From positions 2,053,164 to 2,117,163 of the forward strand of contig NZ_KB913033.1 in the NCBI RefSeq assembly GCF_000384235.1: DNA of 64,000 nt, given 5' to 3'. Made by a program: the position numbers and the translations under genes. A model generated the notes under the pieces. The model was not told where the DNA came from. It made no database searches and saw only the letters and a program-made list of their open reading frames with translations. The DNA is from Hydrogenovibrio halophilus DSM 15072 (GTDB lineage Bacteria; Pseudomonadota; Gammaproteobacteria; Thiomicrospirales; Thiomicrospiraceae). Positions 5,292-62,045 of the stretch are shown here, one piece after another (position 1 is the first letter of the stretch; each line of letters begins with the position of its first letter).

Positions 5292-6968
5292 ATGCTGCTG
5301 ATCTTTACGTTGATTCTGGTGGTGGTGTTGCTTTCCCGCATTCTGGAAGAGCGGCTGAACTGGCCGTTTGCCTTGTCTGCGATCACGCTGGCCTATCTGG
5401 GCAACCACTTTTTTCATCTGGACCCGTTGGGCGAAGCCTTTCCTGAAATCGTCTATCTGATGTTGCCCATCATTCTGATTCCGGATGTTCTGGGCGTCTC
5501 GCGCACGGAGCTGCGACAGAATCTCGGCAGTATCATCTATCTGTCGGTGGTGGCGGTGGGCATCGCCATTGCGCTGGCCATGGGGCTGACCCACTGGCTG
5601 GCGCCGCACTATCAGTTTACCCTCGGCATGTTGCTGGCCCTGTTTGCGCCGTTGATGGCGACGGATGTGGTGTCGGTGTCGTCGATTTTTTCCCGCTTTA
5701 AATTGCCCGAACGGCTCAAGCTCTATGCCGAAGGCGAAAGCCTGTTCAACGACATCACGGCGATGATTCTGTTTTTCTTTGTGGCCTTGCCGCTGATTGA
5801 GGGCAGTGATGTGGTCTGGTCCGAGCTGCAGTGGTCACTGGGGTCGATGGTGCTGGAATCGGTATTCGTCGGCGTGATCATCGGTTTGATCGGTTATTAC
5901 CTGTTCAAGTATTTTTCCGACAGCATCGAGCAGTTTCTCACCATTTACCTGATGGCGACCATGGCGTTTCTGGTGGCCGAACATTTTCAGCTGTCCGGCA
6001 TCCTTGGCGTGGTGGTGACCATCCTTTTGTTCAAGTATCTGTTTGACAAGGAAGGGCACTACAAAAAGTTTAACCTGTCCGCGCTTTATCAGTCTCTGAA
6101 CCGGGAGAGCACGCCGGAAAACAGTTTTCGGGCCTATCGAAAAGAAGCGGCCTATCTGGGGATGTTTGCCAATGGCGTGATTTTTGTGGCCATCGCCAGC
6201 ATTGTGGAGCTGTCGTTGCTGTGGCAGTACAAGCTGGAAATTCTGTATGCGTTTGTCCTGACCACGGTGCTGAGGGCCTTGCTGCTGGTGCCGCTGGTGG
6301 CGATCAAAAAACACCCCTGGCGCTGGAGCGGGGCCCTGACCTTTGCCGGGATGAAAGGCGGGCTGGCGATCATTATGGTGTTTTCGCTGCCGGCGAGCTT
6401 TGAATACAAAGAGCTGTTTCTGTCCGTGGTGGTCGGGGTGGTGATTCTGTCGATGTTTGTCAACACGCTGTTGCTCAAGGTCTTTCTGTTGTGGCAGGCG
6501 GAAGGGTTTGCGTTGGACAAAGCCAACGACCATCAGTCGATGGGGGAAGTGCAGGCGGCGAGAGAAACGCTGAAGCAGCTATTGGAAAAAGACACCGTCA
6601 CCAGTGCCTACAACCCGCTGGTGTTTGAGGACGTGATTGAAAAGGAGATGGCACGGGCACAGCGTTATCAGGAGCCCTTTGCCTTGCTGGCGTTCGAGCA
6701 TGACGATGCGAATTTTGTTGGCAATGAACTGGCGCCCTTGCTGCGAAAGTCAGACTATTTCGGCAAACTCGGCCCCCAGCGCTACGCGATACTGGCCACG
6801 CATTCCAACATTGATGCGGCCCTGATTGTGGCGCAGAAACTGCACGAAAGGTTGGAGAAACTGCCGATTGCGGTCACGGTCTTTGCCACCGGGGACACTC
6901 TGTCGATGCTGTATGAAAAGCTCGAGCAGGCGCTGTCGCGCAATAACCCGATTGATGTGGAGCTGTAG
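5292..6968 (+). CDS. Cation/proton antiporter (CPA1/NhaP-like) with C-terminal degenerate GGDEF-like domain
   Basis: 558-aa inner-membrane protein. Residues 1 to about 400 form a run of hydrophobic helices typical of Na+(K+)/H+ exchangers of the CPA1 superfamily, with ATDVVSVSSIFSRFKLPERL and GESLFNDITAMILF (Asp pair of the ion site) and LTFAGMKGGLAII. A soluble tail from about residue 434 resembles a diguanylate cyclase domain: DTVTSAYNPLVFEDVIEKEM corresponds to the usual DxLTGLxNRRxFE start. The catalytic GGDEF is replaced by GPQRY (494-498), while RKSD (485-488) stands exactly five residues upstream, where the RxxD product-inhibition site belongs. I infer a c-di-GMP-sensing or structural tail. 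The exact transported ion is unknown. Confidence 0.85.
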   Translation: MLLIFTLILVVVLLSRILEERLNWPFALSAITLAYLGNHFFHLDPLGEAFPEIVYLMLPIILIPDVLGVSRTELRQNLGSIIYLSVVAVGIAIALAMGLTHWLAPHYQFTLGMLLALFAPLMATDVVSVSSIFSRFKLPERLKLYAEGESLFNDITAMILFFFVALPLIEGSDVVWSELQWSLGSMVLESVFVGVIIGLIGYYLFKYFSDSIEQFLTIYLMATMAFLVAEHFQLSGILGVVVTILLFKYLFDKEGHYKKFNLSALYQSLNRESTPENSFRAYRKEAAYLGMFANGVIFVAIASIVELSLLWQYKLEILYAFVLTTVLRALLLVPLVAIKKHPWRWSGALTFAGMKGGLAIIMVFSLPASFEYKELFLSVVVGVVILSMFVNTLLLKVFLLWQAEGFALDKANDHQSMGEVQAARETLKQLLEKDTVTSAYNPLVFEDVIEKEMARAQRYQEPFALLAFEHDDANFVGNELAPLLRKSDYFGKLGPQRYAILATHSNIDAALIVAQKLHERLEKLPIAVTVFATGDTLSMLYEKLEQALSRNNPIDVEL

Positions 6969-57489: not shown

Positions 57490-58602
57490 ATGCAAAAAAA
57501 ATCAGGCACAATCACGCCCGTTAAAGTCAAAAACGGCACGCGCTTCAATGCCCAAAAGCAATATAAGGGCGTTCGCTACTCTCAACGATTCCAGACCCGT
57601 GAGGATGCACAGGAATGGCTGGACGATCTAGCCTATCTGGGTGCAACCGATTCCAACGGCAACCCAACACGCAAAGCAAAAGCCGCTCAACTCATTATTG
57701 ATGAGATCGACCAACAGCGGGAACGCAACACCACCCCCACGCTCAAAGAGTGCATCAATCTGTTTTCTAGTCAGTCAGATCTCAAAAGCGCGTTTGAGTA
57801 TGTTAAGCAATTAAACCGCTTCTTAGGGCTTCTTGATAAACCAGTAAACGAGATCGGGCGGCTGGATTTTGAGCTTGAACTTGATCGAATCCAAGAAGAT
57901 CGGGGCATGACCGATTCCACCCGCAACCGCTATCAGGCAGCGTTTTCAAGCCTGTTTAAGTGGCTGGCACGGCACAAAGACTTCAAGCAATACCAACTCA
58001 TAAACCCGACCATTCACACCCCGCGCGGCAAAGAGGGTGCAGGGTGTATGCTGTTTTTATCCAAAGATGAACAGGTGCGCTTGCTGGAAGCGTGCAAGGC
58101 CAGCAAATGGGATGGGCTTTATTTGCTCGTTTATTTGCTTTTGCTGACAGGTTCACGCCGCAATGAGATTGCTCAACTACGTTGGGAAAACGTGGACTTG
58201 AGCGAGGGCATTCTCTACCTTGTTAAAACGAAAAATGGTAGCGACCACGCCGTTAAATTGCCAAAGCAGGCCACCGCCTTGCTTAAAGAGTGGAAAATCA
58301 GCCAGCCGCTTTCAAATTGGGTTTTTCAGCATAGACGCGACCCACGCCGTGCAATGGTGAACTTTAATGGGTATTGGGAAAAAGCAAAAAGCGCGGCTAA
58401 CCTACCAGCAGAACTAAGAGTGCATGATTTAAGGCATACAACGGCAAGCACCATGCTTGCAGATGGTTACAGCCTTGAGCAGATAAAAGAGACGCTTAAT
58501 CATAAAAGCGTGATGATGACAAACCGCTATGCTCATGCTTTGGGCATAAAAGAGACGGTAGCAAGCCGTGACACCGATTTTTTAAGCCAAGCTGGGGGTT
58601 AG
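57490..58602 (+). CDS. Tyrosine recombinase (integrase) of the mobile element
   Basis: 370-aa integrase with an N-terminal arm-binding region (KQYKGVRYSQRFQTREDAQEWL), core-binding domain (about 95-170) and catalytic domain. Catalytic residues visible: Arg in TGSRRNEIAQLRW, His-x-x-Arg in HDLRHTTAS, the second His in LNHKSV and nucleophile Tyr in TNRYAHAL. It starts 138 bp after tRNA-Cys, suggesting integration at that gene's 3' end. The start follows AAAAAGGGATGAAATC. Confidence 0.92.
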   Translation: MQKKSGTITPVKVKNGTRFNAQKQYKGVRYSQRFQTREDAQEWLDDLAYLGATDSNGNPTRKAKAAQLIIDEIDQQRERNTTPTLKECINLFSSQSDLKSAFEYVKQLNRFLGLLDKPVNEIGRLDFELELDRIQEDRGMTDSTRNRYQAAFSSLFKWLARHKDFKQYQLINPTIHTPRGKEGAGCMLFLSKDEQVRLLEACKASKWDGLYLLVYLLLLTGSRRNEIAQLRWENVDLSEGILYLVKTKNGSDHAVKLPKQATALLKEWKISQPLSNWVFQHRRDPRRAMVNFNGYWEKAKSAANLPAELRVHDLRHTTASTMLADGYSLEQIKETLNHKSVMMTNRYAHALGIKETVASRDTDFLSQAGG

Positions 58603-59249: not shown

Positions 59250-59372
59250 ATGGGGAATACAAAAGAAAACCCGAACGAGCGTGGCGGCTTGATCGGGCTG
59301 AGACATAAGGATTTGTCATGGATAAGTATAACCGATATGACGACCAAAAACACGCTATTTTCAACAAGTTAG
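59250..59372 (+). CDS. Candidate 40-aa protein overlapping the primase gene start
   Basis: Frame with a strong ribosome-binding site (AAAGGAG, 5-6 bp before the ATG at 59250) encoding MGNTKENPNERGGLIGLRHK... and ending 55 bp inside the primase gene in another frame. Could be a coupled leader. Unrecognized. Confidence 0.35.
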   Translation: MGNTKENPNERGGLIGLRHKDLSWISITDMTTKNTLFSTS

Positions 59373-61718
59373 AGTTTTGCAGCGGCTTTGGGCAACATCA
59401 CACCAATAAACCTAAAGCTGAATTTGGGAAGCCTTATAAGGCCATTGGCTGGGATGATATAAGAGAGCTGTTAGCAAACCCCAACAGCACGGACAAAAAG
59501 AAAGCCCAATGGGTGATCTTTTCAGACCAGACGGGGGAACATGGGCGCAACCTTGCGTTTTTGCGTGATAACGCCTTATACGGCGCGCTATGGGCCGACA
59601 TTGACGAAACAGGCTTCACAATTGGCCAGATGGAAGCATTCATTGAAACATTGGGCGTTTATGGCTTTGTCTATACAACGACAGGCGCGACCAAACAGGC
59701 GCAAAAATTCCGCTTGATTTTTCCCCTAGCCGAGCAGTTAGGTGCGAATGACTTTGAACGCTTGCAAAAGATCCTAAATAGAAAGCTTATTAATTCAAGC
59801 ATTACACCCGACAGAGCAACCGAGAGGGCTAATCAGGTTTGTTATTTGCCCAACCGTGGCGAATATTATGATTATCGCATCGTGGAAACTGATTCATTCA
59901 CGGATGAGCCACTACCCTATGCCAGCGCGGCCATGTTCAAAGCGGATCTTGATGCAATGCTTGAAGCTGAGCAGGTCGAGAAAGAGCAACAGGCAGAGCA
60001 GAGAAAGCAAAGCCAGATCAAAGCGGCCCAGCGAATGGCAAGCGGCCAATCAAGCCCAGTTGATGCGTTTAATGCTGAATTTGGGATTGAGTTAATGCTC
60101 ACCACGTACGGCTATGCAAAGGACGGGAAAAGATACCTTTCACCCAACAGCGGAAGCGGTAGCCCTGGGGTTGAGATCAAGAACGGCAAATGGCTTTCAA
60201 GCCACGAAAGTGACGCCGCGTTAGGCATTGGCAGAGAAACCAACGGTGGTTGCATGGGTGATGCGTTTGATCTTTATGTTCATTATGAGCATGGGGGTGA
60301 CTATGACGCAGCCGTTAAAGCCGCTGGGGCCATGTTCACCACGCCAGACGGGCAAACGATCACCAAAGCCAATCAGCGGGCTTATATGGAAGCACAAAAC
60401 CAGCAGGAAGCGGCCGCGATGTTTGAGAACGCCCCGCAATGGGCCAAAGAATTGAGCAAAAACGGCGGCCAATCGCAACCAGAAACGCAACCAAGCGGCC
60501 AGCCCACGGCCAATACTGGATCGGTGGGGGATAAGCTATCCCCTGAGCAAAAAGCGGCTGCAAGCTTGGTTGATGAAATTGAGCAAAGCCTTAAAAAGAA
60601 ACTCAAACAGGACGGCCTTAGAGAAAAGCTGAATATAGATCCAAACGTGATCTTGAAAATGATTAGCGGTTCATTTTGGAGTGGTCAGAAATCAAAGCTT
60701 TTTTTGCTGGGTTATCATGGCGGCCTTGTGCAGTATTCAGAAAAAGACGGGTGGAAATTTCTAGCAAAGAACTTTGGGAAAGCACTTGATTCTGAAAAGC
60801 TAAACGAACTTGCGACCGTCAAAGCTGAGAGCATGGAAAAAGGCGCGCAAAAGGCATTTATTGGCCTTGTGAACTCAATCCCCAAAACGGCCATAATGGA
60901 CTATATCAAGTTTCATAATCAGCGGGATTCTATCGAGATGCGTGTCGATATGTTCACGGGCAATAATGGCTACGTGAAAATCATGGACGAAAAAGCGCGC
61001 GTGGTTTATCCGCATATACCTTTTGAAAAGCCATTGCCGCAATATGACAACGCCGTGATTGAGGATTACAAACAGCATTTTAAGCGGCTGGATGAGTTTT
61101 TAGAGTTGGTCGTTATGGCCCGATTCGCACGCGATAGAAAGAAAGCTTATCTTTGGATGCTTGCGCACAGTGATTGGGGCAAAGGTTTTTTGTTGGGTGT
61201 GTTCAAGCAGATGGGCCTAGTTGTGGATCTGAGCATAAAGGAGATTGAATCCATATTTGAGGGCAAACCAGTAGGCCGTTCAATGCAGGACTTCAAACGC
61301 GCATTTATTTTGGCCGTGGATGAGTTTAAGGCGGTAAAGTCTGAGATCAAACAATTGCAAAGTGAAATCAGCCTTGCGCCAAAGAATCAACTTAGCCAAT
61401 CGGTGGAGGTTTTTCTCAAACTGTTTTTATCGGCTGAGAGCGTTGCATCATTGGTGGGTGAATACGGGGTTGAAGATCAGTTTGCAAACCGCTTTTCAAT
61501 TTTTGACGAAAAGGGCACGCTGGAAGATCGGCCAATGTTTCACCAAGTAGGCAAGGCCGCCTATTTTGACAACGTGCAAACATACGTGGCCAGCGTGTTA
61601 AACAATCGCATTGATGAGATGGTCAACAAGGGCAAACAGCAGGCCGAAAAAGAATGTAATGGTCTAATAAAGTTGGAAGTTGTGATAGCCTTCCCAAACT
61701 GTTATTCAGGAGACCACA

Positions 61719-62045
61719 ATGTCAAAAACAGGATCTAAACGCAAAGGACGACTCAACATCAGTCCAAAACAAAAACTGGAATATGCCAAGCTCATGATCG
61801 AGGATGGTTATACCAACAAACAGATCATGGAATTGTCCGGTGCCTGTGCCTCGGCGGTGACTCGCTGGAAACGACAATACCGTCAGGAGCTTAACGGCGA
61901 GATCCCTGAAGGCAAAACCGCGCTGACCGAAGAGCATCGACGCATTCAGGAGTTGGAACAGCAACTGGCTGACGCCAAGCGGGACAATGCCCTGTTAAAA
62001 AAGGCCACCGCCTTTTTCATTCGCGACAATCCAGCATTACAGTGA
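61719..62045 (+). CDS. IS3-family transposase OrfA
   Basis: 108-aa protein with a helix-turn-helix (KLEYAKLMIEDGYTNKQIMELSGACASAVTRWKRQY) and a C-terminal leucine zipper-like coil (IQELEQQLADAKRDNALLKKA). An A6G slippery heptamer at 61997-62003, in phase A AAA AAG, permits the -1 frameshift that makes the OrfAB transposase. Ribosome-binding site AGGAGACC. Confidence 0.92.
   Translation: MSKTGSKRKGRLNISPKQKLEYAKLMIEDGYTNKQIMELSGACASAVTRWKRQYRQELNGEIPEGKTALTEEHRRIQELEQQLADAKRDNALLKKATAFFIRDNPALQ

Follow-up and report, generated by a model that had tools for sequence, protein, structure and literature searches.

Introduction

The signal molecule c-di-GMP, the product of GGDEF-type diguanylate cyclases, is known to influence motility, polysaccharides, transcription and the cell cycle. 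Among the described systems, PelD and PopA resemble what is proposed here for the antiporter, in that a GGDEF domain serves as the c-di-GMP receptor, with an RxxD motif in the case of PelD (extracts of a 2020 review, PMC7288161); both proteins appear in the effector table excerpted from PMC12564702. They act on the Pel polysaccharide and on the cell cycle, whereas the domain described below sits on an ion antiporter. The inhibitory (I) site of PleD is formed by R359, D362 and R390 of one domain together with R313 of the adjacent one (PMC7288161, in extract), and dimeric c-di-GMP cross-links two domains in both DgcR and PleD (PMC8041772, in extract). According to the same extract, the equivalent of R390 in DgcR is too distant to interact, and another Arg takes over the function of R313.

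Control of cation transport proteins by a cyclic dinucleotide, acting through a C-terminal domain, is described for CpaA and KtrA, one of which is a cation/proton antiporter (PMC7288161, in extract). In that case, however, the ligand is c-di-AMP, the domain is of the TrkA_C/RCK_C type and the organism is S. aureus; RCK_C is stated there to bind c-di-AMP specifically. A 2023 receptor table includes CpaA_RCK and KdpD, both of them S. aureus proteins of ion transport, and the reference attached to KdpD is titled as concerning c-di-AMP. The words "antiporter" and "transporter" are absent from the main text of a 2025 review of c-di-GMP effectors (PMC12564702). Among the matches listed from full-text searches of open-access journal papers, no title or abstract presents an antiporter that carries a GGDEF domain or is controlled directly by c-di-GMP; the first-pass annotation of this DNA likewise knew of no described antiporter of this kind.

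The eukaryotic exchangers SLC9C1 and SOS1 share the membrane fold of our protein and carry cytoplasmic regulatory parts, although their C-terminal domain is of the cyclic-nucleotide-binding type and not a GGDEF domain. PDB titles for SLC9C1 name cAMP and cGMP as ligands. PaNhaP is a dimeric, electroneutral Na+/H+ antiporter (PMC4381880, in extract), but at 422 residues, the length of the target in our fold search, it has no room for such a tail. Finally, two PDB chains named as ammonium transporters (8qj3 and 8qpf) combine a membrane transporter with a GGDEF-like part that matches our tail in phmmer and profile searches; they belong to another transporter family.

Here we compare these systems with an antiporter encoded in a stretch of 64,000 nucleotides from Hydrogenovibrio halophilus DSM 15072 (contig NZ_KB913033.1), referred to as the window. 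Coordinates are collected in Table 1.

Table 1. Features of the antiporter gene and of related loci (window coordinates unless a locus is named)
Feature	Position	Strand	Basis
Cation/proton antiporter of the CPA1 type, 558 aa, ending in a degenerate GGDEF domain	5292..6968	+	ORF list, translation, Pfam
Membrane transport part, residues 1-404	5292..6503	+	Invariant residues; full-model fold matches
Linker helices, residues 403-430, from membrane part to tail	6498..6581	+	Model confidence <50 at 415-429
Degenerate GGDEF-fold domain, residues 430-558 (start approximate)	6579..6965	+	Pfam, phmmer, tail profile, AlphaFold2, Foldseek
R455, equivalent to PleD R313 (I-site residue from neighbouring domain)	6654..6656	+	Alignment
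Deletion site between N474 and F475, about 16 residues including PleD N335 and D344	6711..6716	+	Alignments
RKSD, residues 485-488, equivalent to PleD R359xxD362 (primary I-site)	6744..6755	+	Alignment
GPQRY, residues 494-498, lost GG(D/E)EF signature	6771..6785	+	Translation; canonical in 0/25 tails
K516, equivalent to PleD R390 (third primary I-site residue)	6837..6839	+	Alignment
Upstream PAS-GGDEF-EAL genes	L033:1101-3905; L034:124-2037	Same as antiporter
Short-type antiporters grouping across phyla	L038, L040, L045-L049; window 5292-6968		Both trees

A CPA1 antiporter with an apparently intact transport part

Judged by its sequence, the protein is a CPA1 cation/proton antiporter, presumably exchanging Na+ or K+ for protons. 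Residues 12-401 matched the Pfam Na_H_Exchanger family with 104.7 bits, against a cut-off of 26.2, and the closest named relative, at 90% identity, was the ortholog from Thiomicrospira sp. WB1. The protein fell below the curated cut-off of the a_cpa1 equivalog model TIGR00831 (84.6 versus 279.6 bits). A model of the full antiporter (pLDDT 80.0) resembled SOS1, SLC9C1, NHE1 and PaNhaP in a fold search, with SOS1 and SLC9C1 among the top matches and the PaNhaP entry 4cz8 matching at E = 3.0e-10.

Seven residues (T124, D125, E149, S150, N153, D154 and R328) were invariant among 25 tail-bearing orthologs. The first six are the residues of an NhaP-type ion site (T-D, E-S and N-D) and have the spacing of T129, D130, E154, S155, N158 and D159 in PaNhaP (PMC4381880, in extract), a match made by spacing and not by a printed alignment. 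Because of these invariant residues and their PaNhaP-like spacing, the transport half of the protein looks intact.

The C-terminal tail has a predicted GGDEF fold

The first-pass annotation had aligned the tail of the antiporter with GGDEF domains, and this alignment held. The tail alone scored 27.5 bits against the Pfam GGDEF family (PF00990; cut-off 23.8, E = 3.1e-6), and the whole antiporter 22.4 bits, just under the cut-off; in a Pfam scan of the whole 2.36 Mb genome, which gave 49 GGDEF matches, the tail was not among them. With TIGR00254 the tail alone gave 34.3 bits (E = 1.7e-8), under the cut-off of 37.4. A phmmer search of the tail against the PDB reached 3.7e-6, and a profile built from 25 tails found diguanylate cyclases in the PDB at 1.8e-16.

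Structure prediction, which might have argued against the assignment, also gave a GGDEF fold. The AlphaFold2 model of the tail had a pLDDT of 88.1 and a pTM of 0.81, and its top match in Foldseek was a diguanylate cyclase (3.2e-9). The model superimposed on the diguanylate cyclase 5llw with a Z score of 18.7 and an rmsd of 1.6 over 131 residues, and on PleD 1w25 with a Z score of 17.8, PleD entries in general giving values of about 18. The tail is thus confirmed, at the level of homology and predicted structure, as a GGDEF-fold domain with a relationship beyond chance. A chance occurrence of the motif was ruled out by the clear homology seen with the tail profile and by the fold (Foldseek and Z scores).

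The tail has lost its catalytic residues

In place of the catalytic signature the tail carries GPQRY, as first noted from the sequence, and a canonical GG(D/E)EF was found in none of the 25 tail-bearing orthologs. We mapped the tail on to PleD, in an alignment of 20 of the 25 tails (the near-copies L041, L042, L004, L056 and L052 being omitted), at D327, N335, D344 and K442, which we take to be the metal- and GTP-binding residues, N335 and D344 being presumably the GTP-binding Asn and Asp. D327 corresponded to E469, N335 and D344 were deleted, GGEEF corresponded to GPQRY and K442 to N552. The deletion of the GTP-binding segment is common to 15 tails, referred to as short-type; the ten long-type tails have a shorter substitute stretch at this point. 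The absence of this segment sets the tail apart from PelD and PopA as they are described, the comparison being with their descriptions and not their sequences.

With the signature absent and the metal- and GTP-binding residues changed or deleted, an active diguanylate cyclase was ruled out at the level of sequence; the tail should not be a cyclase and looks enzymatically dead. No form of the antiporter with an intact GGDEF was found among the 25 tail-bearing proteins. Three long-type tails (L051, L053 and L055) retain traces of the signature, reading GEDEY, QEDEY and TDDEY, respectively, a pattern that fits the decay of a once active cyclase domain.

Positions of the I-site are retained

The spacer between RKSD and GPQRY is five residues (YFGKL), exactly the interval first reported for this protein and the same as in PleD, where RxxD occupies 359-362 and GGEEF 368-372. 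Two further positions, not named in the first-pass annotation, extend the correspondence to R390 and R313 of PleD, i.e. K516 and R455. As a result, the earlier proposal that catalysis was lost while the positions of the inhibitory site were kept is supported by the residues present and can be widened from the RxxD pair to all four. The tail has the sequence features of an I-site receptor of the PelD/PopA type: RxxD five residues ahead of the degenerate signature, a basic residue at 516 and Arg at 455.

The same positions were followed through the 25 tails, which are related sequences, so that neither the counts nor the column tests that follow are independent. RxxD was present in 23 (R485 in 23, D488 in all 25) while the catalytic signature was present in none, and its loss among homologs is not the random one that would have spoken against the proposal. 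Position 516 was basic throughout (K in 21, R in 4), and position 455 was R in 22 and E, G or K in the other three. In conservation the columns of R485, D488, K516 and R455 ranked 11, 2, 13 and 28 of 129, and the six catalytic columns still present ranked from 45 to 113. Random sets of four columns reached the mean conservation of the I-site set in 0.15% of draws, or in 0.38% when drawn from columns with a polar majority. The Arg of RxxD was lost in two orthologs (GKGD in L046 and PQGD in L047), which lie on separate tree branches; either these two proteins have given up any binding or the Arg is dispensable.

As a yardstick we used the GGDEF domains of the same genome, taking 48 stretches that span its 49 matches (38 canonical and 10 other) alongside 20 tails. 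RxxD was present in 20 of the 38 canonical domains, a basic residue at the equivalent of 516 in 15, and R at the equivalent of 455 in nine. Set against these figures, the counts for the 25 tails indicate that the full I-site is kept better in the tails than in cyclases with an intact signature. The Asp of RxxD is common in cyclases too (28 of the 38), which could make its conservation partly a matter of structure.

Residues outside the I-site are also conserved: Y440, G491, D535 and K543 are invariant, and as conserved as the I-site columns. A YFGK block directly after RxxD (residues 489-492, positions 6756-6767) is well conserved across the tails but is not what the genome's own cyclases have there; its Y489 occurs in 22 of the 25 tails. 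This block could mark a protein contact at that surface.

Distribution and ancestry of the tail

Full-length relatives were found in four of the 11 genomes of the genus; of the other seven, three had a distant tail-less antiporter and four had GGDEF matches only. They occurred in 7/62 genomes of the order, including the four from the genus, and in 3/369 of a class sample, one of them new. In the order of a Sulfurimonas MAG, 14 of 398 genomes had full-length relatives and four more had tail-less ones. The named holders are Thiomicrospira, Thiomicrorhabdus, Hydrogenovibrio, Piscirickettsiaceae, Halothiobacillus, Sulfurimonas, Sulfurospirillum and Helicobacteraceae, names that presumably stand mostly for sulfur bacteria.

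Two phylum samples were also searched, scoring the best few candidates per genome, so that rare forms can be missed. For the phylum of the window, a match at 1e-70 or better was obtained in 60 of the 398 genomes, and every match listed besides the window's own ended at or before profile position 434, without the tail. In the phylum of genome G723, 13 of 397 matched at 1e-105 or better: 12 tail-bearing, all already in our set, and one tail-less. The plasmid collection yielded a single record, covering antiporter residues 50-404 only.

From 41 rows we kept 31 (25 with and six without a tail), dropping nine duplicates, L030-L037 and L039, which repeat proteins of the set from a second collection, and L063, a frame with stops. 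A first tree of the membrane part had a branch, supported at 100/100, that separated all 25 rows with a tail from the six without. The split recurred, again at 100/100, with 18 tail-less rows, i.e. after addition of 11 from the window's phylum sample and one from that of G723; in both trees the program flagged long branches. This pattern fits, but does not prove, a single origin of the tail. The 15 short-type rows, which come from Gammaproteobacteria and Campylobacterota, were likewise on one side of a 100/100 branch, and this grouping of rows from two phyla suggests transfer of the short-type antiporter between them.

The tail itself gave dN/dS values of 0.02-0.19 in seven of eight pairs. In one of those seven, the window against its nearest relative, dS was near saturation (3.1), and no dS was obtained for the remaining pair. 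These low ratios show that the tail is maintained under purifying selection. RxxD was retained in tails with as little as 24% identity to that of the window.

Proposed mechanism and alternatives

We propose, with a probability of roughly 0.6, that the tail is a c-di-GMP receptor derived from a cyclase domain, which has lost the enzyme, kept the I-site and acts on the antiporter. By analogy, the best reading is a receptor domain like those of PelD and PopA, fused to an antiporter and probably working across its dimer, where it would bind the ligand and affect transport. A diguanylate cyclase domain would have lost its activity while keeping its product-inhibition site. The antiporter is expected to be dimeric, like the CPA1 antiporter PaNhaP, and two tails would therefore lie side by side under the membrane. 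There they could present the pair of half-sites spanned by a c-di-GMP dimer in PleD, the ligand being gripped by R485, D488 and K516 from one tail together with R455 from its partner. The cross-linked tails would be fixed relative to each other, as in inhibited PleD, and the helices at 403-430 might relay this to the membrane part, biasing the transport cycle and setting the exchange activity. That c-di-GMP might release an inhibited state is a guess, based on PDB titles in which full SOS1 is auto-inhibited and truncated SOS1 constitutively active.

The tail might instead be a dimerisation or autoinhibitory domain that binds no nucleotide, with RxxD kept for packing on the membrane part or on the partner tail. 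A degenerate GGDEF domain may function as an interaction module, and the conserved residues outside the I-site (the four invariant ones, and Y489) would suit such a role, as would the two orthologs that lack the Arg. However, packing does not predict that charge should be kept at just the I-site positions, one of them supplied by the adjacent domain, when the catalytic columns have drifted, and we consider this explanation unlikely. A tail that binds another nucleotide (GTP, ppGpp or c-di-AMP) in a remodelled pocket seems a good deal less probable. Binding of other nucleotides by GGDEF domains is known from PDB titles, in which PleD appears with ppGpp and pppGpp, but with the GTP-binding segment deleted in the short-type tails, and the metal-binding and signature residues not kept, no active-site pocket is apparent.

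We give very little credence to a functionless, decaying remnant whose motif reflects common ancestry or structural need: the patchy distribution in the genus and order would agree with it, but the low dN/dS values and the survival of RxxD in distant tails speak against it, as does the presence of RxxD in only three of the ten other, non-canonical GGDEF domains of the genome. An outward fusion, in which ions would be sensed by the antiporter while its tail titrates c-di-GMP or acts as a regulator of partner cyclases, has parallels in an ammonium transporter domain joined to a histidine kinase (PMC5764959, in extract) and in the 8qj3 and 8qpf chains, but is highly improbable, as the protein retains no catalytic output domain and the invariant transport residues make transport look like the output.

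Returning to the tail as a c-di-GMP receptor, the first-pass suggestion that c-di-GMP controls ion transport is supported, binding and control being what the retained residues would predict. The wider claim, that in one lineage of CPA1 antiporters from sulfur bacteria the I-site of a domesticated cyclase, working across the dimer, lets c-di-GMP gate the transporter directly and thereby control both cytoplasmic pH and cation balance, we put at a little better than even. Sulfur-oxidising autotrophs make acid during growth. If the proposal is true, the decision to attach or swim would be tied in these organisms to the balance of pH, cations and proton-motive force, and the antiporter would be a c-di-GMP counterpart of the control of CpaA by c-di-AMP. 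The I-site reading makes a sharp prediction, involving four named residues and one ligand.

Genomic context

The number of GGDEF matches per genome was 17-95 in 22 tail-bearing genomes counted (49 in the window's own) and 7-15 in three tail-less genomes, one of only 0.9 Mb; since tail-less genomes of the window's genus were outside this count, an association between the tail and GGDEF number is not proved. The two other GGDEF genes reported at first pass within the window are real by Pfam. About 0.9 kb downstream of the antiporter, past a minus-strand ORF, is a REC-GGDEF gene that has two receiver stretches.

Across nine antiporter loci compared, no shared gene neighbourhood or operon was found. 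Two relatives, Hydrogenovibrio sp. SC-1 (L033) and a Piscirickettsiaceae MAG (L034), have a PAS-GGDEF-EAL gene in the same orientation immediately before the antiporter, ending about 40-50 bases 5' of it; it is possible that its product supplies or removes c-di-GMP locally. In a Sulfurospirillum MAG (L039:2226-4531), the antiporter is followed by an ion-channel gene with TrkA domains and by a second TrkA-N protein. Elsewhere in the window, an ORF of 806 residues (59318-61738), for which Pfam gave no match at 1e-5, has a phage-type integrase gene (57490-58602) close by.
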